DNA from: Labrys wisconsinensis
Lineage (GTDB): Bacteria; Pseudomonadota; Alphaproteobacteria; Rhizobiales; Labraceae
Direction of reading: 5' to 3'
NCBI RefSeq assembly: GCF_030814995.1
Contig: NZ_JAUSVX010000015.1
Location: forward strand, 124,001 to 188,000
DNA length: 64,000 nt
The notes under the pieces are model-generated. The model was given only the letters and a program-made list of their open reading frames with translations, was not told the DNA's origin and searched no databases. This document shows, piece after piece, positions 5,778 to 30,876 of this stretch. Position numbers and translations under genes: made by a program. Within the stretch, counting starts at the first letter, position 1. Each line of letters begins with the position of its first letter.

Positions 5778-6338
5778 AGGTAAACCTCCCCCATTGCGAT
5801 CGCCGACTGCCCTTCGGCAGGCGCGATCACTTGCTTGGTTTTGATCCTGATGGGATACGCGTGATTGATCCGCATGGTTTGCTCGCCCAGAACCCCGGGC
5901 TTGTCAACGCGGGGCGACTGGTCCGCAGGTGCGCCGGGGAGGACGCCGGCGATGCACAAGACGGTCGACGGAGCGAAAGGATCGGGCGACCCGCGAGGTT
6001 GGGCGGTTACCCACAACCGTATGATTCAAAACAATTTTTGTTTAATCTCACCGCGCCTGGCGCCGGGCCGGCCCTGCGCGCCTCTGCCCTGGCGGCAGAG
6101 GAGGGGAGGGCTGCCACCCGCTCCCAAGCCGCCATCCTCATAGCTGTTATGTCGCCGGTGTCATCTGTTTCCGCGCGACCGTTTCCGAATAGTTGTCCGA
6201 GATGAGCCGGCGTCGCCTCCGGGCCGGAATGGCGGACGTCCGGGACCGGACGACCCGGGCATCGCGTGGCGCCGGCCAGAGGCGTCGGAGCAGCCATGCG
6301 CCGAAGGGCGCGGGCGATGAGGAGAGGACGGTCCTCAA
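5778..6338. other. Divergent intergenic region of the Liv-type transporter
   Basis: This 561-bp gap separates the binding protein gene from the permease gene. It holds an AT-rich inverted repeat (AAACAA, 3-nt spacer, TTGTTT) at 6029-6043 and the shared 17-bp operator at 6137-6153. No convincing open reading frame is present; short ORFs here have shadow-like composition. Confidence 0.6.
6137..6195 (+). promoter_or_regulatory. Shared 17-bp operator (site A) with -10-like box
   Basis: CTCATAGCTGTTATGTC at 6137-6153 matches the recurring palindrome of this window. TAGTTG begins at 6190, 37 bp after the operator edge. No -35 hexamer lies at normal spacing, which suggests activator dependence. It would drive the permease/ATPase genes from about 140 bp upstream. 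Confidence 0.5.
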
Positions 6339-7238
6339 GTGCTGCAATTCCTGCTGAGTGGCATCGCCATCGGCGCCGTCTATGGCCTCATCGGCATGGC
6401 GCTGGCCATCTCCTTCTACGTCACGCGCATCATCAACTTCGCCCAGGGGCAATTGATGATGGTGACCGTCATGGTCACGGCGGAGGCAGCGTCGTCCGGC
6501 TATCCCGTCTGGGTCGCCGCGATCGCCGGTCTTGCCTGCTCGTGCCTCGTCGGCGTGCTCTCCTATCTCATCGCGGTCCGGCCGATCCTGCTCACCAACC
6601 GGTTCAGCTTCGGCTGGCTGGTCTCGACGCTCGGCTTCGCCGTGATCGTCGAGAATGCTGCCGCCTATATCTGGGGGCCGACCTCGCAGCCGTTTCCGCC
6701 CTTCCTTAGGGATGTCAGCCTGCCGATCGGGGATGCGGTGCTGACGGGCCAGCAACTCCTCACGATCGTCGTGGCGGCGGTGCTGACGATCGGTTTCGAG
6801 CTGGTACGCCGGCACACCATCTTCGGCAAGCTCTCCATGGCGACGGCCTTCGATCCGGAAATGGCCTCGGCCATCGGCGCGGACACGACGGCGGTCTCGA
6901 TCGGCGCCTTCGCGGTCTCGGCCCTCTTCGCCGGCATCGCGGGGCTTCTCATCGGGCCGACGACCTTCGCCAATCCCTATCTCGGCGACACGTTCGGAAC
7001 CTACGGCTTCATCGCCATGATGATCGGCGGAGGAACGGAGCGTCCGATCGCGGCGATGGCCGGCGGACTGGTCCTCGGCATCTGCGCCGAGGGTGCCAAC
7101 GCCATGATCAATTCGCAGGCCTCCGACTGGTTTCCGTTCATCGTCCTCGTCCTGATCCTGATCGTCTCGCCGAAGGGATTGCTCAGCAGCAGCAATCCGC
7201 TCCTGCGGCCGCGGCGCGGTGCGGGGAAGCCGGCATGA
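6339..7238 (+). CDS. livH: Branched-chain-type ABC transporter permease (LivH-like)
   Basis: This 299-residue membrane protein belongs to BPD_transp_2. It opens with LLSGIAIGAVYGLIGMALA and has NFAQGQLMMV shortly after, the signature region of LivH permeases. The start is GTG at 6339, preceded by GGAGAGGA. The stop overlaps the next gene's ATG by 4 bp (ATGA). It forms half of the channel, and the partner permease is fused to an ATPase in the next gene. The symbol denotes family; an amino acid substrate is not proven. Confidence 0.88.
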   Translation: MLQFLLSGIAIGAVYGLIGMALAISFYVTRIINFAQGQLMMVTVMVTAEAASSGYPVWVAAIAGLACSCLVGVLSYLIAVRPILLTNRFSFGWLVSTLGFAVIVENAAAYIWGPTSQPFPPFLRDVSLPIGDAVLTGQQLLTIVVAAVLTIGFELVRRHTIFGKLSMATAFDPEMASAIGADTTAVSIGAFAVSALFAGIAGLLIGPTTFANPYLGDTFGTYGFIAMMIGGGTERPIAAMAGGLVLGICAEGANAMINSQASDWFPFIVLVLILIVSPKGLLSSSNPLLRPRRGAGKPA

Positions 7239-9091
7239 CCCGCGCTCCGGACCATACCCTCCTCGCCTCGGCGCCTTCCGTTCCCAGCGCCGGGGCCGGA
7301 TGGCGCAGCCTCGGCCCCCTCGCGGCCGTCGCTGCCTGGCTCGCGCTGACGGCCTTCGTGGCGCAGTCCGACCTCAGCCTGCAGAGCCTCGTGCTGGTCG
7401 CCGCGGTGTTCGGGATCCTCGCCATCAGCCTCGATCTCGTGGCGGGGATGCTCGGGCTCTATTCGCTCGGCCAGGGCGGCTTCTTCGGCATCGGCGCCTA
7501 TCTCACCACGATCGTCTCCAACACCGATGGCTGGCCCGTCTTCTGGCTGCTGCCGGTGGTGCTGGCAGTGACCGGCCTCGTGGGCATGGCGGTGGGCGCT
7601 ATGTCGCTCAGGGTCAGCGGCCTCTACTTTGCGATCACCACCTTCATCTTCACCCTGGTGCTGACGGTTCTCGTCACCGACATGGTCGGCCTGACCGGCG
7701 GCCTCCAGGGCCTGCTCGGACCGGCCTTCCCGGATTTCCCGCCGGCTTTGGCATGGCTCGGGACCCCGGTCGTCTGGTGCATCATGCTGGCGCTCCTGGC
7801 GTGCGTCGGCCTCGTGTGGAACATCCGGCGCTCGCCGCTCTACCCCGTGCTCCTGTCGATCCGCGACGCGGAACCCTTCGCGGAAGCGGCCGGCGCCCGC
7901 ACGGCCTTGATCAAGGTCGGCATCTTCGGCCTGTCCGCCGCGATGGCCGGCGGCGCCGGCTGGCTGTTCTCGTTCCTCGGCGTGGTCTCGCCCAGCCAGT
8001 TCGACTGGTCCGTGTCGCTCAATATCCTGGTGATGGTGCTGATCGGCGGCATCAACACCACGCTGGGGCCGCTCCTCGGCGCGATGTTCGTCTCGATGTT
8101 TCCCGACCTCGTCAACATCAATCCCTGGCTGCAGGAGATCGTCTACGGCGCGCTGTCGATCCTCGCCATCACCCTCCTGCCCGACGGTATCGTCGGGCGC
8201 GTGCAGAAACTGGTTTCGCCCGTCGCCGGACGCCGTGCCCCGTCCGGCTCCGGCCGCGACGTCGCGGCGCCGCAACCGGCGGCGATCCTGCCGGCTGCCG
8301 CTCCGCACTCGTCCGCCGGCGAGCCGGAGGTCATCGTCGAATGCCGCGGCATCGAGTTCGGCTACGACCTCGGACCCAAGGTGCTCCGGCAGATTGACCT
8401 CACCGTCCGCCGCGGTCACATCCACGGCCTGATCGGACCGAACGGTTCCGGCAAGAGCACGCTCGCCAACGTCATCTCCGGGCGGCTGAGGCCGCATGGC
8501 GGCGAGGTGCTGGTCAAGGGGCGGCGCGTGGAGCGGATGCCGGCCAGCGCACGCTCGAAGCTCGGCCTGAGGCGGACCTTCCAGGCGGCGCAGCTGATCA
8601 AGGAGCTGACGCTCGTCGAGAATGTCATGGTCGGGCTCTTCGATCGCGTCCCCGGAATCGTCGCGCGCGCTGGGGTCTGGCCTCTGCTTCCGTCCGGCCG
8701 TCGCGACAGCCGGGCGATGCGGCACCATGCGGCCGAAGCTCTGCGCCTGGTCGGCGCGGGAGAGTGGGCGGCCCGGCCGGTGGGCGACGTGCCACACGGC
8801 ATCGAGCAACTGACGCAACTCGCGTCGGTCTGCGTCGCCGGTCCCGACATCATCATCCTCGATGAGCCGGCGACCGGATTGTCGGCGAAGGAAGTGAGCC
8901 ATCTCGCCGCCATCCTGGCTCAGCTCAAGACGCGGGGCGTCACCATGATCATCATCGAACACCAGACGCGATTCCTGTTCCCCCTCTGCGACCGCGTCAC
9001 GGTGCTGAACGCCGGCGAGATCATCCTCACCGGCTCGGCGGACGAAGTGCGGGCCGATCCGGTGGTCAGGCAGGTCTATCTCGGCGAATGA
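7235..9091 (+). CDS. Fused LivM-like permease and LivG-like ATPase
   Basis: This 618-residue protein joins two transporter parts. Residues ~30-330 are a LivM-type permease with SLDLVAGMLGLYSLGQGGFFGIGAY and many hydrophobic segments. A proline/alanine-rich linker (~335-365) follows. Residues ~370-618 are a LivG-type ATPase with Walker A GPNGSGKST, the sequence PHGIEQLTQLAS in place of the usual LSGGQ signature, and Walker B IIILDEPATGLS. It would act at the inner membrane with LivH, LivF and the divergent binding protein. ATGA overlaps link it to both neighbours. Permease-ATPase fusions of this type occur in proteobacterial Liv systems. Confidence 0.9.
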   Translation: MTRAPDHTLLASAPSVPSAGAGWRSLGPLAAVAAWLALTAFVAQSDLSLQSLVLVAAVFGILAISLDLVAGMLGLYSLGQGGFFGIGAYLTTIVSNTDGWPVFWLLPVVLAVTGLVGMAVGAMSLRVSGLYFAITTFIFTLVLTVLVTDMVGLTGGLQGLLGPAFPDFPPALAWLGTPVVWCIMLALLACVGLVWNIRRSPLYPVLLSIRDAEPFAEAAGARTALIKVGIFGLSAAMAGGAGWLFSFLGVVSPSQFDWSVSLNILVMVLIGGINTTLGPLLGAMFVSMFPDLVNINPWLQEIVYGALSILAITLLPDGIVGRVQKLVSPVAGRRAPSGSGRDVAAPQPAAILPAAAPHSSAGEPEVIVECRGIEFGYDLGPKVLRQIDLTVRRGHIHGLIGPNGSGKSTLANVISGRLRPHGGEVLVKGRRVERMPASARSKLGLRRTFQAAQLIKELTLVENVMVGLFDRVPGIVARAGVWPLLPSGRRDSRAMRHHAAEALRLVGAGEWAARPVGDVPHGIEQLTQLASVCVAGPDIIILDEPATGLSAKEVSHLAAILAQLKTRGVTMIIIEHQTRFLFPLCDRVTVLNAGEIILTGSADEVRADPVVRQVYLGE

Positions 9092-9816
9092 CCATGCAAT
9101 CCCCCGTCATCCTCGAGGTCGAGGCGCTGAGCGCCGGCTATGGTCGCTTCGACGTGGTCCGCAACGTGGCGCTGACCGTCGGCAAGGGCGAGGCCGTGGC
9201 CCTGCTCGGCCCGAACGGCGCCGGCAAGACGACCGTGCTCCGCGCCGTCATGGGCATGATCAAGCAGCGTCGCGGCACCATCCGCGTCGGGGACAGGGAC
9301 ATATCGGCATTGCCCGCGCACCGCATCGCGCGAGGCTTCGCGGCGATCGCCCCGGAGGGCCGGCGCCTGTTCCTCGATCAGTCGGTCGAGGACAATCTGA
9401 TCCTCGGCGCCCTGCATCTGCGGCGCGACCGGAGCAGGGTGCGGACGCTGCTGGAGGGCGTCTACGACCTCTTCCCGGTGCTGAGGGGCTACAGGACCCG
9501 GCTCTCATCCTTCCTCAGCGGCGGTGAGCAGCAGATGGTCTCGATCGGCCGCATGCTGATGAGCGACCCGGCGGTAATGCTGCTCGACGAGCCCTCCGTC
9601 GCGCTTTCGCCCGTTGCGGTCGACATCGTGGCGAAGGCTTTGATCGAGCTGCGCCGGCGCGGCGCCTCGCTGCTGCTCGTCGAGCAGCGCATCGACGTTG
9701 CGACGCGCGTCTGCGACCGCCTCTACGTGATGAGCCATGGCGAGATCGTCGAGGAGATGACGCCCGAGGCCGTGCGCCATGGCGGCATGTCGATCCTCAA
9801 CCGCTATCTCGGCTGA
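9088..9816 (+). CDS. livF: Branched-chain-type ABC transporter ATPase (LivF-like)
   Basis: This 242-residue ATPase has Walker A GPNGAGKTT, a signature in FLSGGEQQM and Walker B VMLLDEPSVALSP. The short family-typical start and the segment GRRLFLDQSVEDNLILGA place it with LivF. It completes the importer, pairing with the LivG-like domain of the fused upstream protein. Its ATG overlaps the upstream stop. The stop at 9814-9816 lies 6 bp before the next shared operator, so the transcription unit probably ends here. Confidence 0.9.
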   Translation: MTMQSPVILEVEALSAGYGRFDVVRNVALTVGKGEAVALLGPNGAGKTTVLRAVMGMIKQRRGTIRVGDRDISALPAHRIARGFAAIAPEGRRLFLDQSVEDNLILGALHLRRDRSRVRTLLEGVYDLFPVLRGYRTRLSSFLSGGEQQMVSIGRMLMSDPAVMLLDEPSVALSPVAVDIVAKALIELRRRGASLLLVEQRIDVATRVCDRLYVMSHGEIVEEMTPEAVRHGGMSILNRYLG

Positions 9817-9821
9817 CATTT

Positions 9822-9879
9822 CCGATAGCTGTTATGTCGTCCGTGGTCTGGCGGGCGCGGCGGTTGCCCTTGCTAGACT
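9822..9879 (+). promoter_or_regulatory. Shared 17-bp operator (site B) with -10-like box
   Basis: CCGATAGCTGTTATGTC at 9822-9838 is followed by TAGACT starting at 9874, exactly 36 bp from the operator edge. The -35 position is GC-rich and non-consensus. The unit downstream would hold the small unknown gene and the MBL hydrolase. Confidence 0.55.
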
Positions 9880-10468: not shown

Positions 10469-10492
10469 CACCGATCAGAACGGGAGCAAGGA

Positions 10493-11371
10493 ATGGCCGA
10501 CTATTCGATCTGGGTGCTGGACTATGCCGCAGTCGCCAAGTTTCCACAGAGCGTCATGCTCTACGGCCCGCAATATCAGGGTGTCCGAAATCTGCCCTAT
10601 GCCTATGTTCTGATCAAAGGCAAGGGCGAAGTCATTCTCGTCGACACGGGCTACGACCATAAGGAATACGGCAAATACCTCGCCGACCTCTATGGCGTGT
10701 CCAATTGGCATCCGGCGCACGAGGTGCTGGCCGAATGCGGCGTGAGGCCGGAAGACGTCACCACCGTGTTCATCACCCATGCCCATTTCGATCACATGGG
10801 CGGGCTCGACCTCTTCCCCAACGCCACGTTCTATCTGCAGAAGCGCGAGCTCGACAAATGGATCTGGGCCCTGGCGCTCGGACCCGAGTTTCGCTTTCTC
10901 GTCGGCGCGGCCGATCCGGCCGACATCGTCAAGGCGACGCGCCTCGCGCAGGAGGGGCGCATGGTGCTGATCGACGGGGATCGGGAGGACGTGCTGCCCG
11001 GCATCGACGTGCATCTCGCCGCCGACACCCACACCTATGGCTCGATGTATGTCACGGTGCGCAACGACGGCGCCCCCGAGAGCCAGGACAGCTGGATCCT
11101 CGCCGGCGACCTCCTCTACACCTACGACAACCTCACCGGCCTCGAACCCGCCGAGCCGCAGATCGTGCCGATCGGCCTCGCAGTCGGCAGCCAGACCAAT
11201 CTGATCTTCACAAGTGCCGAGATGCTGCGGGCCGTCGGCGGGGAGCCAAGGCGGGTCATCCCGGTGCATGAGGACCGGCTCAAGACCCTGTTCCCCTCGC
11301 GCAGGACCGCCGCCGGCCTGCATGTCGTCGAAATCGCGCTGGCGGCCGACGAGGCGAGCCGGGTCGCCTGA
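10493..11371 (+). CDS. MBL-fold metallo-hydrolase (AHL-lactonase-like)
   Basis: This 292-residue cytoplasmic protein has the zinc motif THAHFDHMGGLD near residues 95-105. ILAGDLLYTY later supplies the bridging aspartate region. VILVDTGYD before the motif is typical of the AttM/AiiA-like branch, which opens lactone rings; the real substrate here is unknown. GGAGCAAGGA precedes the ATG. It follows the small unknown gene and precedes the third shared operator. Similar folds are encoded at 3504 and 16906, so the region carries three such hydrolases. Confidence 0.85.
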   Translation: MADYSIWVLDYAAVAKFPQSVMLYGPQYQGVRNLPYAYVLIKGKGEVILVDTGYDHKEYGKYLADLYGVSNWHPAHEVLAECGVRPEDVTTVFITHAHFDHMGGLDLFPNATFYLQKRELDKWIWALALGPEFRFLVGAADPADIVKATRLAQEGRMVLIDGDREDVLPGIDVHLAADTHTYGSMYVTVRNDGAPESQDSWILAGDLLYTYDNLTGLEPAEPQIVPIGLAVGSQTNLIFTSAEMLRAVGGEPRRVIPVHEDRLKTLFPSRRTAAGLHVVEIALAADEASRVA

Positions 11372-11382
11372 GCGGCCCGCCT

Positions 11383-11440
11383 GACATTTCTGTTATGTCC
11401 GGGCCACCGATAACGGCGGCTGCGGGAACTGGGCTAGGGT
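11383..11440 (+). promoter_or_regulatory. Shared 17-bp operator (site C) with -10-like box
   Basis: GACATTTCTGTTATGTC at 11383-11399 has perfect 5-bp outer arms (GACAT/ATGTC). TAGGGT begins at 11435, 36 bp after the operator edge. The dehydrogenase start codon at 11492 follows, leaving a predicted leader of about 45 nt. Confidence 0.55.
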
Positions 11441-11491: not shown

Positions 11492-12376
11492 ATGACCCAG
11501 GTGATCGGATTTGTAGGGCTGGGGCGCATGGGCGGGCCGATGAGCCGCAGGCTGATCGATGCGGGTCATCGCCTGACCGTCTTCGACGCGAATGCCGAGG
11601 CTGTCGCTCCCGTCGAGAGCGCCGGCGCCGCGATCGCCGCCTCCCCGGAGGCGATCGGTCACGCCGCAGACATCGTCTTCGTCAGCCTGCCCACGCCCGA
11701 TATCGTCCAGTCCGTCGTCCTCAACGGCATCGGCAATGGCAGCCGGGTCAAAACCGTCGTCGACCTGTCGACGAGCGGCCCCAGCATGGCCGGCCGCGTG
11801 TCGAAGGACCTCATGGAGCGCGGCATAGCCTGGGTGGATGCGCCCGTGTCGGGCGGCATTGCCGGTGCCAGGAATGGCACGCTGGCGGTGATGGCTTCGG
11901 GCCCGCGCGCTTCGTTCGAGCTGGTCGAGCCGCTGCTCGCGGTGTTCGGCAAGGTCTTCTTCGTCGGGGAGAAGGCCGGCCTCGGCCAGGTCGCCAAGCT
12001 CGGCAACAATCTCCTCGCTGCCGCCGCGATGGTGGTGTCGTCGGAGGCGCTGGTGATGGGGGTCAAGGCCGGCATCGACCCGAAGGTGATGCTCGACATC
12101 ATCAATGCCGGAAGCGGCCGCAACAGCGCCACCCAGGACAAGTTCCCGCGCTCGGTGCTGCCGCGCACCTTCGACTTCGGCTTCGCCACCGGCCTCTCCT
12201 ACAAGGACGTCCGCCTCTGCGTCGACGAGGCCGAGTCCCTCGGCGTGCCGATGATCGTCGGCGCCGCCGTGCGGCAGATGCTGGCCGTCACCAACGCCAG
12301 GTTCGGCCCCACCTCGGACTTCACCTCGATCACCCGGGTGGTCGAGGAATGGGCCAACGTCGAGGTCAAGGGCTGA
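11492..12376 (+). CDS. Beta-hydroxyacid dehydrogenase (3-hydroxyisobutyrate/tartronate-semialdehyde reductase family)
   Basis: This 294-residue NAD(P)-dependent enzyme starts with the Rossmann motif GFVGLGRMGGPM. It carries the substrate-binding DAPVSGGIAGA and the catalytic-lysine segment GQVAKLGNNLL. The family oxidises 3-hydroxyacids or reduces semialdehydes such as methylmalonate or tartronate semialdehyde. The start at 11492 has GGAGAGAGG upstream and gives the usual N-terminus. It is strikingly similar to the enzyme at 17978: long identical stretches around SGRNSATQDKFPRSVL and FDFGFATGLSYKDVR. The precise substrate is not evident. Confidence 0.88.
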   Translation: MTQVIGFVGLGRMGGPMSRRLIDAGHRLTVFDANAEAVAPVESAGAAIAASPEAIGHAADIVFVSLPTPDIVQSVVLNGIGNGSRVKTVVDLSTSGPSMAGRVSKDLMERGIAWVDAPVSGGIAGARNGTLAVMASGPRASFELVEPLLAVFGKVFFVGEKAGLGQVAKLGNNLLAAAAMVVSSEALVMGVKAGIDPKVMLDIINAGSGRNSATQDKFPRSVLPRTFDFGFATGLSYKDVRLCVDEAESLGVPMIVGAAVRQMLAVTNARFGPTSDFTSITRVVEEWANVEVKG

Positions 12377-12416
12377 CGGACAGGCCTAAGCAGCTTCTCG
12401 TGGCTTCGGCCACGAC

Positions 12417-12491
12417 TTGATTTTGCATTTTCCATGCAAAATCAATGCTGCTCAAACAACCAAGTGTAAGCAGGTTCGAGAGAACCTGCTT
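12417..12491. promoter_or_regulatory. Two perfect hairpins between dehydrogenase and decarboxylase genes
   Basis: TTGATTTTGCAT (12417-12428) pairs perfectly with ATGCAAAATCAA (12434-12445) around TTTCC. AAGCAGGTTC (12468-12477) pairs with GAACCTGCTT (12482-12491) around a GAGA tetraloop. They may terminate the upstream unit, or the AT-rich palindrome may be a protein-binding site. Confidence 0.45.
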
Positions 12492-12542
12492 GGCGTTTCA
12501 CCCGCGGCCGCCCTGATCGGCTGCTCAGACTGTGGAGTTGTC

Positions 12543-12926
12543 ATGGACAAGGAAGTCTTCGATCGCGGCCTCGCCATCCGCAAGAAGGTGCTGGGCGCCG
12601 AATTCGTCGAGAAGTCGTTCGCCTCGGCCGACGACTTCAACAGGCCGATGCAGGAGCTGGTGACGGAATATTGCTGGGGTGCCGTCTGGGGCCGCGACGG
12701 CCTGTCGCCCAGGGACCGCTCCATGCTCAATCTCGGCATGATCAGCTGCCTCAACCGCCCGCACGAGCTCAAGATGCACGTGAAGGGCGCGCTGAGGAAT
12801 GGCCTCACCAAGGACGAGATCCGCGAGATCTTCCTGCAGGTCGCGATCTATGCCGGCGTGCCGGCCGGGGTCGATTCGTTCCGCATCGCCCGTGAAGCTT
12901 TCGCGGAACTCGACAAGGACGCTTGA
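12543..12926 (+). CDS. Carboxymuconolactone decarboxylase family protein (PcaC-like)
   Basis: This 127-residue protein has the CMD fold throughout. The conserved core LNRPHELKMHVKGALRNG is followed by EIREIFLQVAIYAGVPAG, closely resembling PcaC. PcaC decarboxylates gamma-carboxymuconolactone in protocatechuate breakdown, but relatives act on other lactones or as peroxidases. The start at 12543 has GGAG upstream and matches family length. No other protocatechuate genes lie nearby, so the true substrate is open. It lies 4 bp before the aldehyde dehydrogenase gene and is surely co-transcribed with it. Confidence 0.85.
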   Translation: MDKEVFDRGLAIRKKVLGAEFVEKSFASADDFNRPMQELVTEYCWGAVWGRDGLSPRDRSMLNLGMISCLNRPHELKMHVKGALRNGLTKDEIREIFLQVAIYAGVPAGVDSFRIAREAFAELDKDA

Positions 12927-12930
12927 TCCG

Positions 12931-14442
12931 ATGACCGCCACTGCCTCTCCCGCCGTACCGACGATCGACCGCCACCGCATGCTGATCGGCGGCGAATGGG
13001 TCGAGGCGACCGGTGGCGCAACCTTCGAATCCGAGAATCCCTTTCTCGGAGCCGCCTGGGCCGAGGTGCCGCGAGCCGCGCCGGAGGATGTCGACCGCGC
13101 CGTCAAGGCGGCGCGCAAGGCGTTCCGCGATCCGAGCTGGGGCGGCCTCACCCCGACCGCGCGCGGCCATCTCCTGCGCCGCCTCGCCGACCTGATCACC
13201 AGGGAGGCCGACCGGCTGGCTGAGATCGAGACGCGCGACAACGGCAAGCTCATCACCGAGATGCGGGCGCAGCTGCGCTACATCCCGCAATGGTTCCACT
13301 ATTTCGGTGGCTTGGCCGACAAGATCGAAGGCCGGGTCATCCCGATCGACAAGCCGGGCATGGTGAACTTCACGCGCGAGGAGCCGCTCGGCGTCGTCGC
13401 CGCCATCACCCCGTGGAACTCGCCGCTGATGCTGGCGACCTGGAAGCTGGCGCCGGCGCTCGCGGCCGGCAACACCGTCGTCTGGAAGCCGTCGGAGTTT
13501 TCCTCGGTCTCCGCTCTGATGTTCGGGCGCCTCTTCGCCGAGGCCGGCTTCCCCCCGGGCGTCGTCAATATCGTGACCGGTTTCGGCTCCGAGATCGGCG
13601 AGAGCCTGGTGGGTCACCCGCAGGTCGCCAAGGTGGCGTTCACCGGCGGCGATCGCACCGGCCAGAGCGTCTATGAGCTCGCGGCGCGCTCGATCAAGCC
13701 CGTCACGCTCGAGCTCGGCGGCAAATCCGCCAACATCGTGTTCGCCGATGCGCAGCTCGACAATGCGGTGCGCGGCGTCGTCTCCGGCATCTTCGCCGCG
13801 ACCGGGCAGACCTGCATCGCGGGCTCGCGCGCGCTCGTCCACCGGTCGATCCACGACCAGTTCGTCGAGAAGCTCGTCGCCCTGGGGCGGACGGCGCGGA
13901 TGGGCGATCCGCTGCTCGACACCACGCAGGTCGGCCCCATCACCACGCGGCCGCAATACCGGAAGATCCTCGACTATATCGAAATCGCGAAGGGCGAAGG
14001 CGCGACCGCCGTCCTCGGCGGCGGCCCGGCGACGCGGCCCGAATGCGGCGCCGGCTGGTTCGTCGAGCCCACGGTCTTCGCCGGCGTCAATCCGGCCATG
14101 CGCATTGCCCGGGAGGAGGTGTTCGGGCCGGTCCTCTCGGTCATCCCCTTCGACGACGAGGAGGAGGCGATCGCCATCGCCAACGACACCCAGTACGGCC
14201 TCGCCGCCGGCGTCTGGACCCAGAGCATGCGGACGGCCTTCCATCTCTCGCATCGGCTCGAAGCCGGCACGGTCTGGGTCAATACCTACCGGGCGACCAG
14301 CTATCTCTCCCCGTTCGGAGGCTACAAGCGTTCCGGCATCGGGCGCGAGAGCGGCCTGACCGCGATCCGCGAATATCTGCAGGAGAAGAGCATTTGGATC
14401 GATACGGTCGGAGAAGTGCCCAACCCCTTCGTCCAACGCTAG
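12931..14442 (+). CDS. NAD(P)-dependent aldehyde dehydrogenase
   Basis: This 503-residue enzyme covers the whole ALDH family fold. The cofactor region has TPWNSPLMLATWKLAPALA. The general base is in ELGGKS (Glu about 261) and the nucleophile in GQTCIAGSR (Cys about 295). The C-terminal part has SPFGGYKRSGIGRE. It would oxidise an aldehyde to an acid using NAD(P)+, in the same unit as the decarboxylase-like protein. The N-terminus at 12931 fits family length. The substrate is not evident. Confidence 0.9.
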   Translation: MTATASPAVPTIDRHRMLIGGEWVEATGGATFESENPFLGAAWAEVPRAAPEDVDRAVKAARKAFRDPSWGGLTPTARGHLLRRLADLITREADRLAEIETRDNGKLITEMRAQLRYIPQWFHYFGGLADKIEGRVIPIDKPGMVNFTREEPLGVVAAITPWNSPLMLATWKLAPALAAGNTVVWKPSEFSSVSALMFGRLFAEAGFPPGVVNIVTGFGSEIGESLVGHPQVAKVAFTGGDRTGQSVYELAARSIKPVTLELGGKSANIVFADAQLDNAVRGVVSGIFAATGQTCIAGSRALVHRSIHDQFVEKLVALGRTARMGDPLLDTTQVGPITTRPQYRKILDYIEIAKGEGATAVLGGGPATRPECGAGWFVEPTVFAGVNPAMRIAREEVFGPVLSVIPFDDEEEAIAIANDTQYGLAAGVWTQSMRTAFHLSHRLEAGTVWVNTYRATSYLSPFGGYKRSGIGRESGLTAIREYLQEKSIWIDTVGEVPNPFVQR

Positions 14443-14532
14443 CCGGCATTGTTGCAGGCCAAGGCCATGGTTGATAACGTTTCCTCGACAACGGCTCAAA
14501 AAGCGGGCGCCGCCGGGCTGAGGCCACCTGCG

Positions 14533-15441: not shown

Positions 15442-15517
15442 GCGGCCACGGGCCGCCTCGAACACGCCGCCCTGCCGACCGCGCGACGGGGCCAACAATG
15501 CCACCTGGGAGGTGCCG

Positions 15518-16903: not shown

Positions 16904-16905
16904 CC

Positions 16906-17857: not shown

Positions 17858-17915
17858 GACAAAGCTGTTATGTCGGCCGTGGCGATGTCGATGACCGAAC
17901 AGTCCATCCTAGAAT
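17858..17915 (+). promoter_or_regulatory. Shared 17-bp operator (site D) with -10-like box
   Basis: GACAAAGCTGTTATGTC at 17858-17874 is followed by TAGAAT beginning at 17910, again 36 bp after the operator edge. The dehydrogenase ATG lies at 17978, giving a short leader. The rest of this 268-bp gap (17710-17977) holds nothing else I can recognise. Confidence 0.55.
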
Positions 17916-18868: not shown

Positions 18869-18917
18869 CGGGGGCGCCGCCTCGACCTGCCCGTCTTTTC
18901 CGCGTCACGGAGCCGCC

Positions 18918-22357: not shown

Positions 22358-24474
22358 GGCGCTGGTCCCCAATACGCGTCCTGGGCGCACCAGTTCGGGT
22401 CCGCGTCCTTGAGCCGGTACCGGCCGATGCGATTGTTGGAGACACCGCCGAGATAGAGCCAGCCGCGATGCTCGCGCATCGAGGTGATCATCGGATGGTT
22501 GAGCCCGCCGAGATCCCAGAGACTGTCGAGGATCTCGCCCTTTTCGTTGAACTTCACGACGCAGCCGGTGTTGATGTTCGGATAGAGCCATTGGTCCGGC
22601 GCCACCCGCTTCGCCATGCGGCGGCGGAAGCCCGGCATGGTGAGGGCGAGGTCGAGCGCGGGTCCGCGCATGCCGAGGAGCGCCAGCCAGTAATTGCCGT
22701 CGGACGCACGGTTGATGTTGTCGGGATAGCCCGGCAGGTCGGAGATGACGCGCTCGCGGCGACCCTGGTTGGGGCCGGCGAACCAATAGCGGCTGATCGA
22801 GCACGTCCAGCTTTCGGCGAACAGGAAGGATTCGCCATCCCGGCACATCGCAACGCCATTCGCGAAGACGAGCTTCGGGATCTCCGTCCGCGTCTTGCCG
22901 GTGCGCGGGTCGTAGCAGATGATCCGCCCGCTCGCCCGACTCTCGAGCGCGTCCGTCGCCCAGTCCTCCTGCTCGTAGCGGACGGTCGCCTCGCTGAAGT
23001 AGATGCGTCCGTCCGGCGCGACGTCGACATCGTCCGCGAGGCGCAGCCGGGAATCGTCGACGATCGAGGTCCAGCTTCGGTTGGTCTCGTCCGTGAGCTT
23101 CGTCACCGTCTTGTCCGGTGCGACCTGGAAGAGTCCCATGCCGCCGATGCAGACGAGGAGGTTGCCCGACCGGTCGAACGCCATCCCGAGCGGATGGCCG
23201 CCGATATGGGCGAACACCTCGTGCCGTTTGTGGTCGGGACCGAAGAAGCGGACGATGTCGCCGTGCCGGGTGCCGCAATAGAGATTGTCGTCCCGGTCGA
23301 GGATGACGTCCTCCGGCCCCTCGATCTGCCCGAGGCCGATGATCTCCACCTCGCGGAGCCGGTCGTTGAGCGCATAGGGCGAGGCTGGAGCGTCGACCTT
23401 CGGCGCCGGCGGCAGGGTGAGATAGGCCGGCGAGACGTAGACCTTGGCGAGAAGCCGGTGCCGGTGCTTCTGCCATCGCATGTCCACGAAGACGGCGGCG
23501 AGCAGCACGGCGCCGAGGATGGTCGACGTCACCGGACCGCTGATGCCCAGGTTGATCAGGCCGTTCGTCAGCAGCAGCACGAGCAGGCTGCCGATGATCG
23601 CCTTGGCGACCGAGCCGCGTCCGCCGCCGATCGCCGTGCCGCCGAGGACCGCGGCGGTGAGCGCCTGCACCTCGAGGCCGACGCCGGTATCCGAGCCCGC
23701 GCTGCCGAGCCGCGCGGCGAACAGGAAACCCGCGAGCGCGCACATCGTGCCCGAGGCGACATAGGCGAGGAACACCATCAGCCGGACGTTGATGCCGGCA
23801 TTGTGGGCCGACCGGCGTGCACCGCCGACGGCGGTCAGTCGCCATCCCGGCCGCATCCGCGACAGCACGACGTGCCAGGCGGCGGCGATGACGAGGGTGA
23901 TGATGAAGGAGAGAGGAATGCCGAAAACGGAGCCTTCGCCGATGAAGATCCAGAGATCGGAATCGGCGAAGCCCGACATCATCGCCGTCGACATCTTCAG
24001 GAAGACGATCTCGTAGACCGACCGGAAGATCACGAGGCTGACGAGCGTCGTGAGGAAGGCCCGCAGCCTGAGATAGCCGACGAGCACGCCGTTCAGCGCG
24101 CCGCACAGCATTCCCATGCCGAGGATCGCGGCGAGCACGGCGGGGACCGGCCACTGATAGACGTTGACGCCGATCAGCGAGAACAGCACCGCGAGCGAGA
24201 AGACCGAGGCGACGGAAAGATCGATGCCGCCCGAGATCATGACGATCGTCAGCGCCAGCACCACGAGCCCGAACTCGGCGAACTGGCGCGAGAAGTCGGT
24301 GAGGCTGGAAAGGGAGAGGAACCCCGGGATGACGGAGCCGAGCACCACCACCGTCAGCACGAGCGCCGTGAAGGGGATCGCATTGTCGATCCAGCGCTTG
24401 GAAAGGATTTCCCCGATCACGTGATCGGGGAAATAGCGCGAGACGAGACGCGCGACGGTATCTCGATTGTCCAT
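22354..24474 (-). CDS. Fused RbsC-type permease and SMP-30/strictosidine synthase-like propeller
   Basis: Residues ~1-340 of this 706-residue protein are an RbsC-type permease. It has FTALVLTVVVLGSVIPGFLS, then MISGGIDLSVASVFSLAV, the conserved loop, and several further hydrophobic segments. From ~350 the sequence changes to a beta-propeller (IEGPEDVILDRDDNLYCG, IYFSEATVRYE, FANGVAMC, LPGYPDNINRASDGNYWLAL). That part resembles strictosidine synthase/gluconolactonase-like proteins. RbsC-like permeases normally end inside the cytoplasm, so the propeller may sit at the exit of the channel. ATG at 24474 is preferred over the TTG at 24477. The gene lies between the binding protein and the free propeller gene. 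Confidence 0.85.
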   Translation of the reverse strand: MDNRDTVARLVSRYFPDHVIGEILSKRWIDNAIPFTALVLTVVVLGSVIPGFLSLSSLTDFSRQFAEFGLVVLALTIVMISGGIDLSVASVFSLAVLFSLIGVNVYQWPVPAVLAAILGMGMLCGALNGVLVGYLRLRAFLTTLVSLVIFRSVYEIVFLKMSTAMMSGFADSDLWIFIGEGSVFGIPLSFIITLVIAAAWHVVLSRMRPGWRLTAVGGARRSAHNAGINVRLMVFLAYVASGTMCALAGFLFAARLGSAGSDTGVGLEVQALTAAVLGGTAIGGGRGSVAKAIIGSLLVLLLTNGLINLGISGPVTSTILGAVLLAAVFVDMRWQKHRHRLLAKVYVSPAYLTLPPAPKVDAPASPYALNDRLREVEIIGLGQIEGPEDVILDRDDNLYCGTRHGDIVRFFGPDHKRHEVFAHIGGHPLGMAFDRSGNLLVCIGGMGLFQVAPDKTVTKLTDETNRSWTSIVDDSRLRLADDVDVAPDGRIYFSEATVRYEQEDWATDALESRASGRIICYDPRTGKTRTEIPKLVFANGVAMCRDGESFLFAESWTCSISRYWFAGPNQGRRERVISDLPGYPDNINRASDGNYWLALLGMRGPALDLALTMPGFRRRMAKRVAPDQWLYPNINTGCVVKFNEKGEILDSLWDLGGLNHPMITSMREHRGWLYLGGVSNNRIGRYRLKDADPNWCAQDAYWGPAP

Positions 24475-25601: not shown

Positions 25602-26579
25602 TCAGATGTCGCCCTGGGCCTGTTGGGACGTCTGCTCGTCGCGGGGATTGATGAAGCTGTCGACCGTGATGGCGAGGAGCAGGATGAGGCTCTTGATCAG
25701 GTTCTGCGTCGTGTAGGTGAAGTCCATGATCGTCATGCCGTTCAGGAGCACGCCGACGAGCAGCGTGCCGACGAGCACGTTACGGACCCCGCCGCGGCCG
25801 CCACTCAGGCTGATGCCGCCGAGGACGACGACCAGGAGGACATCGTAGATGAGCGTGGAGTTGTAGATGCGCGTGCTCATGCTGGAGACGGCAGCGGCCA
25901 TGACGATGCCGGCAAGGAATGCGATGAAGGACGACAGCATGTATTGCGCCACGATCAGCGGCCGGAGCGGCAGGCCGGTGATGCGGGCGGCGAGTGCATT
26001 GTCGCCAGCCGCGTAGACGAAGCGGCCGAAGCGCGTGCGCCGCAGGAGAAGCGCGACGATGCCGGCGATCACCGCGAAGGCGATGATCGGCATCGGGATG
26101 CCGCCGGCCGTGCCACGGCCGAGAAAGTCGAACCAGGCGATCCCGGCGGGACTGTTCTGCACGTCGATCTGGAACAGCCAGGCGCGGCCGGCGCCGTAGG
26201 CGACGAGGCCCATGGCGAGCGTCGTGAAGATCGCCGGTATGTCGGCATAGGCCACGAGGACGCCGCTCACCAGTCCGATCACCAGCACCAGGGCGAGCGC
26301 CAGGAGGAGAGCCATCCCCAGCGCCATCCCGGCCTGGGCGAGCGCAAGCGCCCATGACAGCGACACCACCATGGTCGCGACCATGGCGAGGTCGATGCCG
26401 CGTCCGACGACGACGAGGCCCATGCCGAGCCCCAGGATCCCCAGGATGGCGACGCTGCGAACCAGCGCAATCAGGTTGCCGGCGGTCAGGAAATTCTGAA
26501 GCGTCAGGGAAAAGATGACGAAGAGAACAACCGAGAGCGCGAAGACGATACCTTCCTGTGACAGGCGCACGCTGCGCAC
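25602..26579 (-). CDS. Sugar ABC transporter permease (RbsC type)
   Basis: This 325-residue membrane protein has the BPD_transp_2 fold, with VVGRGIDLAMVATMVV in the conserved loop and about eight hydrophobic segments. It is the first gene of the five-gene minus-strand operon and pairs with the fused permease. GTG at 26579 is chosen because GGAGG lies 7 nt before it and the downstream sequence begins a normal N-terminus; an ATG at 26687 would add an unlikely proline/glycine-rich leader. A shared operator lies about 120 bp upstream. Confidence 0.88.
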   Translation of the reverse strand: MRSVRLSQEGIVFALSVVLFVIFSLTLQNFLTAGNLIALVRSVAILGILGLGMGLVVVGRGIDLAMVATMVVSLSWALALAQAGMALGMALLLALALVLVIGLVSGVLVAYADIPAIFTTLAMGLVAYGAGRAWLFQIDVQNSPAGIAWFDFLGRGTAGGIPMPIIAFAVIAGIVALLLRRTRFGRFVYAAGDNALAARITGLPLRPLIVAQYMLSSFIAFLAGIVMAAAVSSMSTRIYNSTLIYDVLLVVVLGGISLSGGRGGVRNVLVGTLLVGVLLNGMTIMDFTYTTQNLIKSLILLLAITVDSFINPRDEQTSQQAQGDI

Positions 26580-26699: not shown

Positions 26700-26716
26700 C
26701 GAATATCAGTTATGTC
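26700..26716. promoter_or_regulatory. Shared 17-bp operator, divergent form (site E)
   Basis: CGAATATCAGTTATGTC matches the right arm and centre of the shared palindrome, but its left arm is degenerate. It lies about 120 bp upstream of the permease start at 26579 on the minus strand. No -10 box occurs at the 36-bp spacing seen at the other sites. Confidence 0.35.
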
Positions 26717-26822: not shown

Positions 26823-28808
26823 TCACCGGCCGATGGTGTCAGACACGATCTCCGGCCTGACCGCCTCGGCCGGGACGCCGTCGGCTCCGCCCGTGCGGAG
26901 CACGATGAGCTCGGCGATATCCTTCACCTCCAAAGTGTCCGCGACGCCGAGTGCATCGACGGCGGCGGCATACATCACCTTGTCCTTGGGGCAGGCCACC
27001 ACGAAATACCGGATGTCGCCGAGACCAAGCGCCTCGCGGATGCGGTTCTCGCTGGGCCGTTCGGCGACGCCGTCGTCGCCCTGCCAGATGCGCCCGCCGC
27101 CTGCACCGCAGCAGAAGGAGTTCTCGCGGCAGCGCGGCATGTCGTGGAGCCCATAGCCCGCCGCCCGGATCAGCGCGCGCGGAGCATCGAAGCCGCCATT
27201 GTAGCGCCCGAGATAGCAAGGATCATGATAGGTGACCCTGGCGCCGTCGGCCGGCGCGATGTCCAGCTTGCCGGCGGCGATCAACTCCGCCAGCAAGGCC
27301 GTGTAGTGCAGGACCTCGAACTCCGCGCCGAAATGCCGATAGTCATTCTTGAGGGCGTTCAGGCTGTGCGGATCGGTGGTGACGATCCGATTGAAGGTGC
27401 AGCCCTTGATCGCATCGATGTTGGATTGGGCGAGCGTTTCGAACAGGCCTTCCTCGCCGGCACGGCGCACGTCGTTGCCGCTGTTGCGTTCCGCATCGAA
27501 GAGAATGCCGAAGTCGACGCCGGCGGCGGTCAGCAGCTCCGCGACCTTGCGGGTCACCTCCTGCACGCGCGGATCGTAGGAGGCGTAGTCGCCGACGAAC
27601 CACAGCACGTCGACCGGCTCGCTGCGGGCGTCCTTGACGGGAAAGCCGAGTTCCTTCGTCCAGCGCGCCCGCATCCTGGAAGGCTTGCCCATGGAATTGC
27701 CGAGCCGCGTCAGGTTCGACAGCGCGTCCTGCAGGCCGGCGCTGACGCGGCCTTCGTCGACCAGATGGCGGCGCATGTCGATGATCTTGGGCAGATGCTC
27801 GATCTCGACCGGGCATTCCTCCATGCAGGCGCGGCAGGTGGTGCAGGCCCACAGCGTCGCCTCCGAGATGACGCCGCCGACCAGCGGACCGGCGGCAGGG
27901 CCGGCGGCGAGGGCGTCGCGCATGTCGGTGATCAGCGTCTTCGGGCTCAGCGGCTGGCCCGCCGCATAGGCCGGGCAGACCGCCTGGCAGCGACCGCATT
28001 CGGTGCAGGACAGGAGATCGAGCTGCTGCTTCCAGTCGAACTCGGCCAGCGATGCGACGCCGGGTGTGTCCCGCGTCGGCGGCACGGCCGGTGCAAGGCC
28101 GCGCGGCTGGAGATTGCGGAAATAGATGTTCGGCGCGGCAAGGACCATATGCCGATGCTTCGAGCCTGGAATGTAGACGAGGAACGCCAGGATGGCGCCG
28201 ACGTGAACCCAGGAGAAGACCGCTTCGGCTGCATGCGCCGGCACGCCGAGCCGGCCGAGGCCGCGGGCCAGAAGCGCGGCCACCGGGCGCCAGGAGCCGT
28301 CGGCGCCGCCTGAAATACGGGCCGCCGCCTCGAGGAGCAGCGAAGCCACGATCAGGACGATCAGCACATAGATGATCGCCGCATCCCGGCCGCTCGATCC
28401 CACGAAGCGAGCCGGCTTCAGATGATAGCGCTGGTAGAGCGCCAGCCCGACGCCGACGAGCATCAGCACGGCAAACATGTCCTGGAGAACCGCGATCCAG
28501 GTCTCGCCGCCGATCGGCGCCAGCGAGAACCCCGGAAACAGGCGCGAGCCGAAAGCCTCAATCGTCGCGGTGAACAGGACGAAGAACGAAACGAAGATGA
28601 TCGCATGCAGGATGCCGGCAAGTGGCTTGCGGAGCATCTTCCTGTGCAGGCCGATGGCGCTCGCCACGCCTTTGAGACGCTGCAGCGGCTGGTCGAAGCG
28701 GTCGGCCCTCGGCGCGCTGGCGAGAGCGGACGCGAAGCGACGGGCGCGCCAGCCCGTCAGCGCGATTGCCGCCGCCACCAGAATCCAGAGCGACACCGTC
28801 GATGCCAT
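26823..28808 (-). CDS. Membrane Fe-S oxidoreductase linked to ETF (DgcB/EMO-like, CCG domains)
   Basis: This 661-residue protein starts with about five membrane segments resembling nitrate reductase gamma (residues ~1-230). Two 4Fe-4S motifs follow, CTECGRCQAVCP and CTTCRACMEECP, and then two cysteine-rich CCG-type domains (CYLGRYNGG, ENSFCCGAGGG). This is the architecture of ETF:quinone-type membrane oxidoreductases such as DgcB in dimethylglycine breakdown and the EtfAB-associated EMO proteins. It would pass electrons from EtfAB to the quinone pool. Its ATG lies 1 bp after the etfA stop. No dehydrogenase feeding this ETF is in the operon. Confidence 0.88.
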   Translation of the reverse strand: MASTVSLWILVAAAIALTGWRARRFASALASAPRADRFDQPLQRLKGVASAIGLHRKMLRKPLAGILHAIIFVSFFVLFTATIEAFGSRLFPGFSLAPIGGETWIAVLQDMFAVLMLVGVGLALYQRYHLKPARFVGSSGRDAAIIYVLIVLIVASLLLEAAARISGGADGSWRPVAALLARGLGRLGVPAHAAEAVFSWVHVGAILAFLVYIPGSKHRHMVLAAPNIYFRNLQPRGLAPAVPPTRDTPGVASLAEFDWKQQLDLLSCTECGRCQAVCPAYAAGQPLSPKTLITDMRDALAAGPAAGPLVGGVISEATLWACTTCRACMEECPVEIEHLPKIIDMRRHLVDEGRVSAGLQDALSNLTRLGNSMGKPSRMRARWTKELGFPVKDARSEPVDVLWFVGDYASYDPRVQEVTRKVAELLTAAGVDFGILFDAERNSGNDVRRAGEEGLFETLAQSNIDAIKGCTFNRIVTTDPHSLNALKNDYRHFGAEFEVLHYTALLAELIAAGKLDIAPADGARVTYHDPCYLGRYNGGFDAPRALIRAAGYGLHDMPRCRENSFCCGAGGGRIWQGDDGVAERPSENRIREALGLGDIRYFVVACPKDKVMYAAAVDALGVADTLEVKDIAELIVLRTGGADGVPAEAVRPEIVSDTIGR

Positions 28809-28809
28809 C

Positions 28810-29778
28810 TCAGCCGCTCGCAGCCGCCCGCAGCCTCTCGCTCAGGCTGGCAACGAGGTCGAACAGGTCGCAGGTCGCGCCATAATGCGCGACGTTGAAG
28901 ATCGGGGCCTTCGGGTCGGTGTTGATCGCGATGATGAGATCGGACTGCGACATGCCCTCGAGATGTTCGGGGGCGCCGGAGACGCCCAGCGCAAAATAGA
29001 GCTTCGGCTTGACCTTCTGGCCGGACTTGCCGACCTGCCGCATCTTCGGCAGCCAGCCATTGTCGACGACCGGGCGGCTGCCGGCGATCTCGGCGCCGAG
29101 GATCGCCGCCAGCTCGCGCGCGATGTCGATGCTCGCCTCGTCGCCGATGCCGCGGCCCACGCAGATGATCCGTTCGGCGGTGGTGAGGTCGACGTCCCTG
29201 TAGTCCGGCACGTCGATGGCGACCATCCTCACCTTGCCGCCTGCGACGACGGAATCCGCGTCGATCTCCCGCAGCCCGGCGGCGTCGACCGGGCCGAGGG
29301 GCGCCTCGCCGAAGGCCCCGGGATTGATCATCAGGATGGCGGGCAGCGTCACCACGCATTCGGCCAGGATCTTGCCGCCATACATCTGCGCAGTCACGGC
29401 CAGGGTGTCGCGATCGCGCCGGATGTCGTTGACATACGACACGAGCGGCCAGCCGGTGCGCGCCGCGATGTCCGCGGCGACATCGAGGCCGTTCGCCGAA
29501 TAGGGGATCAGCAGCAGGCCGGGATCCTCGGTCGAGATGGCATCGCGGAGCAGGTGCGCATAGGACTCGGCCGGGATCAGCTCGGTCCCTGCCGCACGCG
29601 CGGCAATCAGCCTGTCGGCCGCGCCGAACGAAGCCGCGGCGGCCTCGCTGTCACGGCCGGCGAAGAAGGCAACCACCTCGTCGCCGGCTTGGGCGACGGA
29701 CCGAGCCGCCATGATCATTTCCAGCGAAAAGGATTCGATCTTGCCGGAACGGCTCTCGGTGCAGGCAATGATCTTCAT
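28810..29778 (-). CDS. etfA: Electron transfer flavoprotein alpha subunit
   Basis: This 322-residue protein has the ETF alpha N-terminal domain and a C-terminal FAD-binding domain. The latter has GRGIGDEASIDIARELA, RPVVDNGWLP, QVGKSGQKVKPKLYFALGVSGAPEH and AINTDPKAPIFNVAHYG. ETF accepts electrons from flavoprotein dehydrogenases and hands them to a membrane oxidoreductase, here presumably the next gene. Its ATG overlaps the etfB stop by 4 bp. Confidence 0.93.
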   Translation of the reverse strand: MKIIACTESRSGKIESFSLEMIMAARSVAQAGDEVVAFFAGRDSEAAAASFGAADRLIAARAAGTELIPAESYAHLLRDAISTEDPGLLLIPYSANGLDVAADIAARTGWPLVSYVNDIRRDRDTLAVTAQMYGGKILAECVVTLPAILMINPGAFGEAPLGPVDAAGLREIDADSVVAGGKVRMVAIDVPDYRDVDLTTAERIICVGRGIGDEASIDIARELAAILGAEIAGSRPVVDNGWLPKMRQVGKSGQKVKPKLYFALGVSGAPEHLEGMSQSDLIIAINTDPKAPIFNVAHYGATCDLFDLVASLSERLRAAASG

Positions 29779-30545
29779 GGTGCCTTCCTCGCCAGGCCTT
29801 TGGCCGCCAGAATGGTGACCAGCCGGTCGGCGACAGTCTCCGCATCGTTGCCCAAGGTCTCTCCCGAACCGCCCTGAGCCGGCTGGCGCAGCCTGACGAG
29901 CTCGGCGGACCGTTCGAAGCCGGATGGTTCCGGCGCGGCGCGGCCGATGGGGGTCTTGGAGGCTTCACGAAGCTTGCTGCCGGACACGTAGCGCGGCGCC
30001 TTGGATGCGGTCTGGACACCCAGCACGGCCGGCATCGCCACTTCGTATGTCACGGCGACGCCGGCGCCGCGCTCCTGCGTGACCCGCAGCCGGCCGCCAT
30101 CGGCCACGATTCGATTCGTGCCGGAGACATGGGGGCGGTCGAGCAGCGCGCCGACATAGGGCGCGAGCTGGCCGAAGACATCCTCGACCGACTGCACCCC
30201 GCAAAGAACGAGGTCGGCCGATCTGCTGCGCGCCATCGCCGCGATCGAGGCGCCGATGTCCCGCGGGGAGATCATGGCGTCCTCTCCGGCCTGGAGCGCG
30301 ACGAGCTCGTCGGCCCCTCGGGCGGCAGCCATCTGCAGCACCCGGTTGGCGCCTTCGCCGACGGCGACGGCCGTCACCCTGGCACCCGCCGCTTCCTTGA
30401 TGAGGATCGCTTCCTCGAGCGCGTGATCGTCGAAATCGTTGAGCTGGAAGTCCAGCCACTCGCGATCGATGCCGCGGCCATCCTCAGCCGGCTGAATCTC
30501 GCCGGCAGAATCCGGCACCATGCGCAGGACCACGAGAATATTCAC
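29775..30545 (-). CDS. etfB: Electron transfer flavoprotein beta subunit
   Basis: This 256-residue protein is an ETF beta subunit: NILVVLRMVPDSAGEI at the start, DDHALEEAILIKEAAGARVTA, the AMP-binding region, and DLVLCGVQSVEDVFGQLAPYVG. It forms the ETF heterodimer with the alpha subunit. GTG at 30545 is chosen because GGAGGGGA lies 7 nt upstream; GTG at 30548 is an alternative, and an ATG at 30620 would add a non-family leader. It is the first gene of its operon, divergent from the importer at 30877. Confidence 0.88.
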   Translation of the reverse strand: MNILVVLRMVPDSAGEIQPAEDGRGIDREWLDFQLNDFDDHALEEAILIKEAAGARVTAVAVGEGANRVLQMAAARGADELVALQAGEDAMISPRDIGASIAAMARSRSADLVLCGVQSVEDVFGQLAPYVGALLDRPHVSGTNRIVADGGRLRVTQERGAGVAVTYEVAMPAVLGVQTASKAPRYVSGSKLREASKTPIGRAAPEPSGFERSAELVRLRQPAQGGSGETLGNDAETVADRLVTILAAKGLARKAP

Positions 30546-30876
30546 CACTTCCCCTCCAGCGGACGCACCTCGGGCGACCGGCACTCGGGCTAGATAAGTC
30601 GCATCTTCCGACCCTCCCAATGCTCAAAAGGGTAATAGCAGCTATTACACGGCCAAGACTTGACGATTTCCAAAGTTCAACTGCTATTTGTGCTCGCTGC
30701 GGTCGTTCGGCGATTTTCAATGTCGATGGCGTGCCGGATCGCGATCTATTCACGTCGAAGACGTGACCTGTTTTGCTTTCGAATATTATATCCAGAACAT
30801 CTTATCTATTGTTCTGAACGTGTGGTGCAAGAAAAAAACTATCGGCGTTCTATCGAGCGTCTCGGAGGAGGAACGA
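30546..30876. promoter_or_regulatory. Divergent control region with palindrome (site F) and two -10-like boxes
   Basis: This 331-bp gap separates etfB from the divergent binding protein gene. GTAATAGCAGCTATTAC at 30632-30648 is a perfect 17-bp palindrome apart from its single central base. TATCTA reads leftward from 30596 (36 bp from the operator edge, toward etfB). TATTTG reads rightward from 30685 (37 bp, toward the importer). The right half of the gap is AT-rich with a further possible -10 (TATTAT) at 30784-30789. No open reading frame of note lies here. Confidence 0.6.

Follow-up and report, generated by a model that had tools for sequence, protein, structure and literature searches.

In the alphaproteobacterium Labrys wisconsinensis, a recurring palindrome at a fixed distance from promoter-like hexamers is real and extends across one island of genes for carbon uptake and breakdown. 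The stretch analysed, referred to as the window, comprises 64,000 nucleotides (positions 124001-188000 of contig NZ_JAUSVX010000015.1, here C15) of an 8.93-Mb assembly consisting of 55 contigs. As judged from sequence comparison, the palindromes are quite probably the primary binding sites of a pair of LysR-type regulators, LysR1 and LysR2, which would control this single uptake-and-catabolism island. Directly supported are the core shared by the sites, the confinement of close matches in this genome to the island, the linkage of the core to a LysR subfamily in other genera, the presence of TA 34-37 bp from the sites, and the conservation of this spacing.

Palindromic sites and -10-like hexamers in the island

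The initial annotation had listed five sites (S1 to S5), all of which stand where it had placed them when read directly from the sequence, but it overlooked two further ones, S6 and S7:

6137-6153 (+): S1, CTCATAGCTGTTATGTC, upstream of the liv-type ATP-binding cassette (ABC) operon at 6339-9816
9822-9838 (+): S2, CCGATAGCTGTTATGTC, upstream of an open reading frame (ORF) without Pfam match and the metallo-beta-lactamase-fold hydrolase at 10493-11371
11383-11399 (+): S3, GACATTTCTGTTATGTC, upstream of a dehydrogenase of the HIBDH family at 11492-12376 and the same-strand gene run containing LysR1
17858-17874 (+): S4, GACAAAGCTGTTATGTC, upstream of a second HIBDH-family dehydrogenase at 17978-18868
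30632-30648 (strandless): S5, GTAATAGCAGCTATTAC, a perfect palindrome between divergent electron transfer flavoprotein (ETF) and binding-protein operons
C15:123658-123674, outside the window (327-343 bp to its left): S6, found by genome search
26700-26716 (strandless): S7, upstream of a sugar-ABC permease at 25602-26579 (-), found by matrix scan

The proposal that the sites share one 17-bp form holds in part. The right half CTGTTATGTC is common to S1-S4, their left halves vary, and S5 is a different 17-mer built around an 11-bp core of the same type. At up to 3 mismatches, the 17-mer is matched by three of the five sites (0.02 expected from shuffles of the window). The full 17-mer GACATAACNGTTATGTC was discarded as a motif: the genome contains no exact copy of it, the best match there has 2 mismatches, and its outer bases are variable. 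In the window, GTTATGTC occurs five times on the plus strand and not once on the minus strand.

When the whole genome is searched for ATAKCWGTTATGTC at up to one mismatch, six places are identified, all of them within 27 kb (C15:123658-150716). Two mismatches add 18 places, which look like background because the reversed control yields 20 genome-wide at up to two mismatches. Among these 18 matches outside the cluster, none is both intergenic and accompanied by TA at 34-37 bp; two coding ones do have TA at this distance. The bare 11-mer ATARCWGYTAT is found at six places in the genome (four for its reversed control), four of them in the island. With close matches confined to the island in this genome, a chance or background set is unlikely.

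Outside the island, intergenic ATAGCWGCTAT palindromes were observed at G000:C9:340284 and G000:C15:6985, neither with TA at 34-37 bp.

Distances to the -10-like hexamers are given as offsets, i.e., hexamer start minus site edge:

6190-6195 (+): TAGTTG, S1, offset 37
9874-9879 (+): TAGACT, S2, offset 36
11435-11440 (+): TAGGGT, S3, offset 36
17910-17915 (+): TAGAAT, S4, offset 36
30591-30596 (-): TATCTA, S5, ETF side, offset 36
30685-30690 (+): TATTTG, S5, binding-protein side, offset 37

The initial annotation had reported these same distances for S1-S4 and for both directions of S5, and they were reproduced. At S6, TA stands at offset 35 on one side, toward an ORF for a periplasmic binding protein that starts at L048:17787, whereas on neither side of S7 was TA found at offset 34-37. 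The -35 positions, described earlier as non-consensus throughout, are so at S1-S4, where the best candidates match 2-3 of 6 bases, the commonest values at random positions. This is less true of S5, which has the candidates TTGACG (5 of 6, spacer 19) and TTGGGA (4 of 6, spacer 18).

Conservation of motif and spacing in related genomes

For comparison with relatives, an alignment of five LysR proteins was used as query; it found 269 proteins, of which the best 80 were kept. Their loci split into 52 near ones (L051-L102, 46-82% identity to LysR1) and 28 far ones (L103-L130, 32-40%). Genes of the relatives were called by a simple codon model and intergenic and coding counts are approximate; near-identical Mesorhizobium loci are included in these core counts as well as in the counts upstream of LysR genes.

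A palindrome search that was blind to the motif ranks ATAGC-N1-GCTAT first of 14,336 classes (all 5-bp half-sites, spacers 0-13) by its ratio to ten shuffles of the intergenic DNA of the 52 near loci. This class is present in 11 near loci versus 0.1 in shuffles and still ranks first with coding DNA included; it is missing from the 14 classes listed for the 28 far loci. Constrained positions in the relatives' sites coincide with the 11-bp core ATARCWGYTAT, by which the sites were selected. That the motif is as common inside genes as in promoters, which the initial annotation had named as a refuting outcome, is not borne out in the near loci, where exact ATARCNGYTAT occurs 29 times in intergenic and once in coding DNA (1 and 1 for the reversed pattern). 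Allowing one mismatch gives 51 intergenic and 34 coding occurrences, and 11 and 54 for the reversed pattern.

Linkage to the regulator genes is seen in the near loci: the 250 bp preceding the LysR gene contain a site at up to one mismatch in 25 of 52 and an exact one in five of 52, the reversed pattern giving none in either case. Within the same distance upstream of other genes, sites are found for 73 of 766 genes at up to one mismatch (reversed 9) and for 27 of 766 as exact copies (reversed 2); in the far set the LysR gene has such a site in 5 of 28 loci (reversed 2). If near LysR proteins are grouped together with LysR1 and LysR2 at 65% identity, nine groups result, each with at least one locus having a site at up to one mismatch. 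For 12 of the 52 near loci the neighbouring genes were determined, and in most of the 11 reported the sites adjoin liv, hydrolase, dehydrogenase, sugar-ABC or LysR genes. Loci from Mesorhizobium and Acidisoma have these same kinds of genes next to their sites. Just upstream of LysR in two Acidisoma loci (L056, 1046-1080; L057, 6293-6318), core-like matches overlap at 9-bp steps.

Across 397 genomes of the order, the exact 14-mer ATAGCTGTTATGTC has 10 matches in 8 genomes, the one studied here included. In four of these eight, again including our own, a LysR1 relative (best match 53-100%) is encoded on the same contig within 13 kb of the 14-mer, at distances of 4.2 kb (G309), 7.2 kb (G277), 4.7 and 8.4 kb (own genome), and 12.9 kb (G107). 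No LysR1 relative at E 1e-40 was found in the other four. By distances and identity, L051 and L054 appear to come from G277 and G309. In G012, which has no LysR1 relative at E 1e-40, two exact 14-mers lie 843 bp apart (G012:C86:9756 and 10599).

To count the spacing in relatives, a site direction was included if a called gene was 45-700 bp away and enough flank was available, and both directions of one site were counted where genes lie on each side; near-copy removal reduced the 112 directions to 90 and, in a stricter form, to 77. TA at 34-37 is present in 28 of the 90 versus 8.8% of 6000 random intergenic positions, and thus the spacing is better than at random intergenic positions, which the initial annotation had named as the other decisive comparison. 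After the stricter removal the count is 22 of 77, exact cores give 15 of 36, and the profile of TA offsets in the relatives' sites peaks at 35 and 36.

Comparison of the same promoters in related genomes, which had also been proposed, demonstrates that at the S1, S4 and S5 types site and spacing persist while the spacer DNA drifts. The promoters were chosen by hand, six for liv and, for the second HIBDH gene (HIBDH2), the window plus six of twelve loci listed; L042-L044 are from G107, and the HIBDH2 locus L042 belongs to the same genome as L080. The compared loci are not independent because many are from related Mesorhizobium strains. S1 is identical at 17 of 17 positions in L043, L065 and L067 and at 16 of 17 in L069 and L077; the liv promoters have TA at 37 in five cases and at 34 in the sixth, with 4-24 of the 33 spacer positions identical to the window. 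The liv promoters of L051, L052, L054 and L057, which were left out of this comparison, have TA at 36, 36, 37 and 35, respectively. S5 is identical at all 17 positions in L044, L087 and L088, and promoters of its type have TA at 36 on the ETF side (3/3) and at 37 on the binding-protein side (4/4), with 12-22 of 33 spacer positions conserved. In the HIBDH2 promoters, i.e., the S4 type, 13-14 of 17 site positions and 7-9 of 33 spacer positions are identical, and TA is at 36 in 7/7.

Candidate regulators and alternative readings

Two genes for LysR-type regulators are present in the window:

14533-15441 (+): LysR1, LysR-type regulator with Pfam domains HTH_1 (PF00126) and LysR_substrate (PF03466), candidate binder of S1-S4 and S6
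38968-39888 (+): LysR2, LysR-type regulator, candidate binder of S5

Both proteins have the N-terminal helix-turn-helix domain PF00126 and the C-terminal substrate-binding domain PF03466 above cut-off and are 51% identical to each other. Among the best 25 of 43 and 45 named NCBIfam LysR families, respectively, none reaches its cut-off, the best scores being 160 and 148 versus a cut-off of 250. At E 1e-60, matches to LysR1 are found in 6 of 120 genomes, including its own, and among four congeners in G004 only (39% identity). That the two LysR proteins are the best candidate binders, as initially suggested, seems to be borne out by the sites upstream of LysR genes in relatives. Within the window no site stands just upstream of LysR1 or LysR2; farther upstream on the strand of each gene there is a site, S3 for LysR1 and S5 for LysR2, which would provide for feedback.

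The usual LysR site lies near -65 and has a T-N11-A motif, according to the accessible text of PMC8407307 and PMC4834489. Like the operators of LysR-type transcriptional regulators (LTTRs) in general, as far as they are covered there, the present candidates have a palindromic, dyad-symmetric primary site upstream of a predicted promoter with its -10 element, in many cases preceding the regulator gene. In some relatives there may be a second half-site near -35, and the S1-S4 promoters are without a -35 box. Unlike these, they read T-N7-A, their centre would be at about -56 instead of about -65, and several target operons stand in one island. In ATARCWGYTAT, each ATA/TAT is shifted inward by about 2 bp relative to a T-N11-A box. 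T-N7-A is found in 46 of 56 relatives' sites and 6 of 7 own sites, a count that needs caution because the core by which the 56 were picked contains it, although the motif-blind search gave the same core. By look and placement, then, the sites are LysR-like, but judged by the T-N11-A rule they would represent a variant box. At the tetralin promoters, ThnR has its primary sites at -64, whereas one promoter has the site displaced by a helix turn, at -75/-76 (PMC4834489, accessible text); as proposed here, one LysR-type regulator acts there on several promoters, a divergent pair included, but its shifted site moves away from the promoter, whereas the sites here would be closer. Non-standard spacings are also described for the boxes of CutR, OccR, PcaQ and IlvY (T-N10-A, T-N12-A and T-N13-A variants; PMC12609908), and T-N7-A is shorter than any given in the accessible text of that source.

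Several findings weigh against binding of the sites by the two LysR proteins and activation from them. The usual T-N11-A box, when tried, fits only 4 of the 56 sites in relatives and none of the 7 in this genome. TA at 34-37 is missing in 62 of 90 site directions, and S7, although 15 of its 17 positions are identical in L042 and L051, was rejected as a 36-bp promoter since TA is absent at that distance in 3/3 genomes. For the far LysR proteins the same motif had to be discarded: their 28 loci contain 0 exact intergenic sites and at one mismatch no excess (19 intergenic, reversed 17). No intergenic site at up to one mismatch is present in 10 of the 52 near loci; eight of these ten are LysR2-type, where in three sister loci an S5-type site is 9.9 kb off, at the edge of the flank, an explanation that does not extend to the other two (L059 and L064). 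The raw count of the 14-mer over 397 genomes is weak evidence because the reversed control, with 6 genomes, nearly equals it, and only the co-location is informative. An activation half-site at offset 13 was rejected as a general feature: TA is there in 4/6 liv and 6/7 HIBDH2 promoters compared, though none of S1-S4 in the window has it (ATAAC stands near S3), and overall the signal is weak, with 7 of 90 site directions (p 0.011) and 4 of 77 after the stricter near-copy removal (p 0.15). Furthermore, the loci were selected by LysR, so that the linkage of other regulators had no equal test, and several island genes are without Pfam match or outside the Pfam scan.

Some of these points could favour a regulator of another family (GntR, IclR or TetR type), encoded by an unscanned gene or elsewhere, with LysR merely travelling along, an explanation we regard as unlikely. 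It would accommodate the compact dyad core and the failed T-N11-A rule, and candidates can be named: a GntR-FCD gene at 43298-43999, and an ORF at L048:12302-13009 (+), 4.6 kb to the left of S6, whose weak match to Peptidase_S24 (E 9.9e-6) also counts against LysR. Peptidase_S24-type domains are known from LexA-like repressors. The 30 Pfam-scanned window proteins include as regulators only the two LysR proteins, the GntR at 43298 and one GGDEF/EAL protein. Against this explanation, 25 of 52 loci carry a site no more than 250 bp ahead of LysR; L100 keeps LysR and two sites nearby while no other window query matched at the cut-offs used, and GntR was not found in the examined 80 kb of G107, where island and sites occur.

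Slightly less probable still is that the LysR proteins do bind but mainly repress, or are mixed repressor-activators, the fixed distance to the hexamers reflecting exclusion or bending in place of recruitment. The S5 promoters could fire unaided and be held down, given their near-consensus -35 boxes TTGACG and TTGGGA, and LysR repression of own genes is described in the accessible text of PMC4834489 and PMC8407307. At S1-S4, in contrast, -35 boxes are lacking, and the palindrome is upstream of the -35 region, not over it. That the repeats are a chance or structural element with no regulatory role, as the frequency of the reversed 14-mer across the 397 genomes might suggest, is scarcely credible in view of the six close matches in one 27-kb stretch of an 8.93-Mb genome, the intergenic bias and the conserved spacing in relatives.

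Island genes and proposed regulation

The presumed targets of the sites, bound by LysR1 or LysR2 in the reading we prefer, are as follows:

6339-9816 (+): branched-chain-type ABC genes for a permease, a fused permease-ATPase and a second ATPase, presumed S1 target
9957 or 10004 (start uncertain) to 10468 (+): ORF without Pfam match, downstream of S2
10493-11371 (+): metallo-beta-lactamase-fold hydrolase, presumed S2 target
11492-17709 (+): HIBDH1, CMD, aldehyde dehydrogenase, LysR1, MmgE/PrpD and second hydrolase, presumed S3 target
17978-19700 (+): HIBDH2 and short-chain dehydrogenase, presumed S4 target
26823-30548 (-): ETF-domain proteins and iron-sulphur protein, presumed S5 target on the minus side
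30874-39888 (+): sugar-binding protein, ABC genes, GMC oxidoreductase, SMP-30 family lactonase and LysR2, presumed S5 target on the plus side

HIBDH1 (11492-12376) belongs to the 3-hydroxyisobutyrate-dehydrogenase family, and the region 11492-17709 is treated as one operon by assumption. The last gene of the liv run (9088-9816) and the ABC genes at 32165-35680 were named from their translations alone. Assignment of the hydrolases as 4-pyridoxolactonase or N-acyl homoserine lactone (AHL) lactonase was rejected, the model scores being well below the cut-offs. In G107, a member of another family of the same order, the island is present but rearranged; most of the matched proteins are 70-95% identical, LysR1 53%. 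This comparison suggests that the island may have spread by horizontal transfer.

A branched-chain-type permease and ATPase are fused in one ORF (7235-9091, +), and another ORF (22354-24474, -) combines the sugar-ABC permease domain BPD_transp_2 with a strictosidine-synthase/SMP-30-like domain, its counterpart in G107 being 88% identical over 702 residues. A 375-aa protein in the sugar-ABC run (21245-22372, -) has no Pfam match at E 1e-5 and is 59% identical in G107. An MHYT-PAS-GGDEF-EAL signalling protein (39958-42381, -) adjoins the island.

The initial annotation placed importer, hydrolase, dehydrogenase and ETF genes in one regulon under an activator that positions RNA polymerase. Importer, hydrolase and dehydrogenase operons do share sites; the ETF site S5 may belong to a sister regulon because it is a distinct perfect palindrome and one of its divergent operons ends with LysR2. 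The spacing to a -10-like element is real and conserved, although at S7 the motif stands without it; activation over repression is suggested by promoter anatomy. If the T of TA is taken as -12, adding 8 bp to the offset of 36 puts the centre of the core at about -56, and its proximal half then has its TA near -53. A LysR dimer would then sit on the core, centred near -56, and a second dimer would lean on the -35 region, where the extra half-site of some relatives has TA at offset 13. Once bound to inducer, the regulator would recruit RNA polymerase to the promoters without -35 box (S1-S4). This promoter anatomy fits a LysR-type activator located upstream of and around -35 and contacting the polymerase. 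LysR1 would be the likelier binder at S1-S4 and S6, and LysR2 at S5.

The operator set is real and conserved; most probably it serves a LysR-type regulon specific to this pathway, which is of an ordinary kind but has an unusually compact box. The wider proposal, that a LysR-type subfamily in several alphaproteobacterial genera reads the compact ATARCWGYTAT and fires from about -56, with a paralogous pair dividing the island, might hold or fail with about equal chance. In the open-licence papers searched we found no published description of the motif or of the island pathway. For a LysR subfamily that has no curated name, the analysis provides a motif together with targets ready to be tested, and it joins the genes for uptake, hydrolase, dehydrogenase and ETF in a single pathway open to testing. 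A LysR-linked operator outside the T-N11-A rule, with its short dyad ATAGCTGCTAT, would bear on how LysR dimers read DNA.

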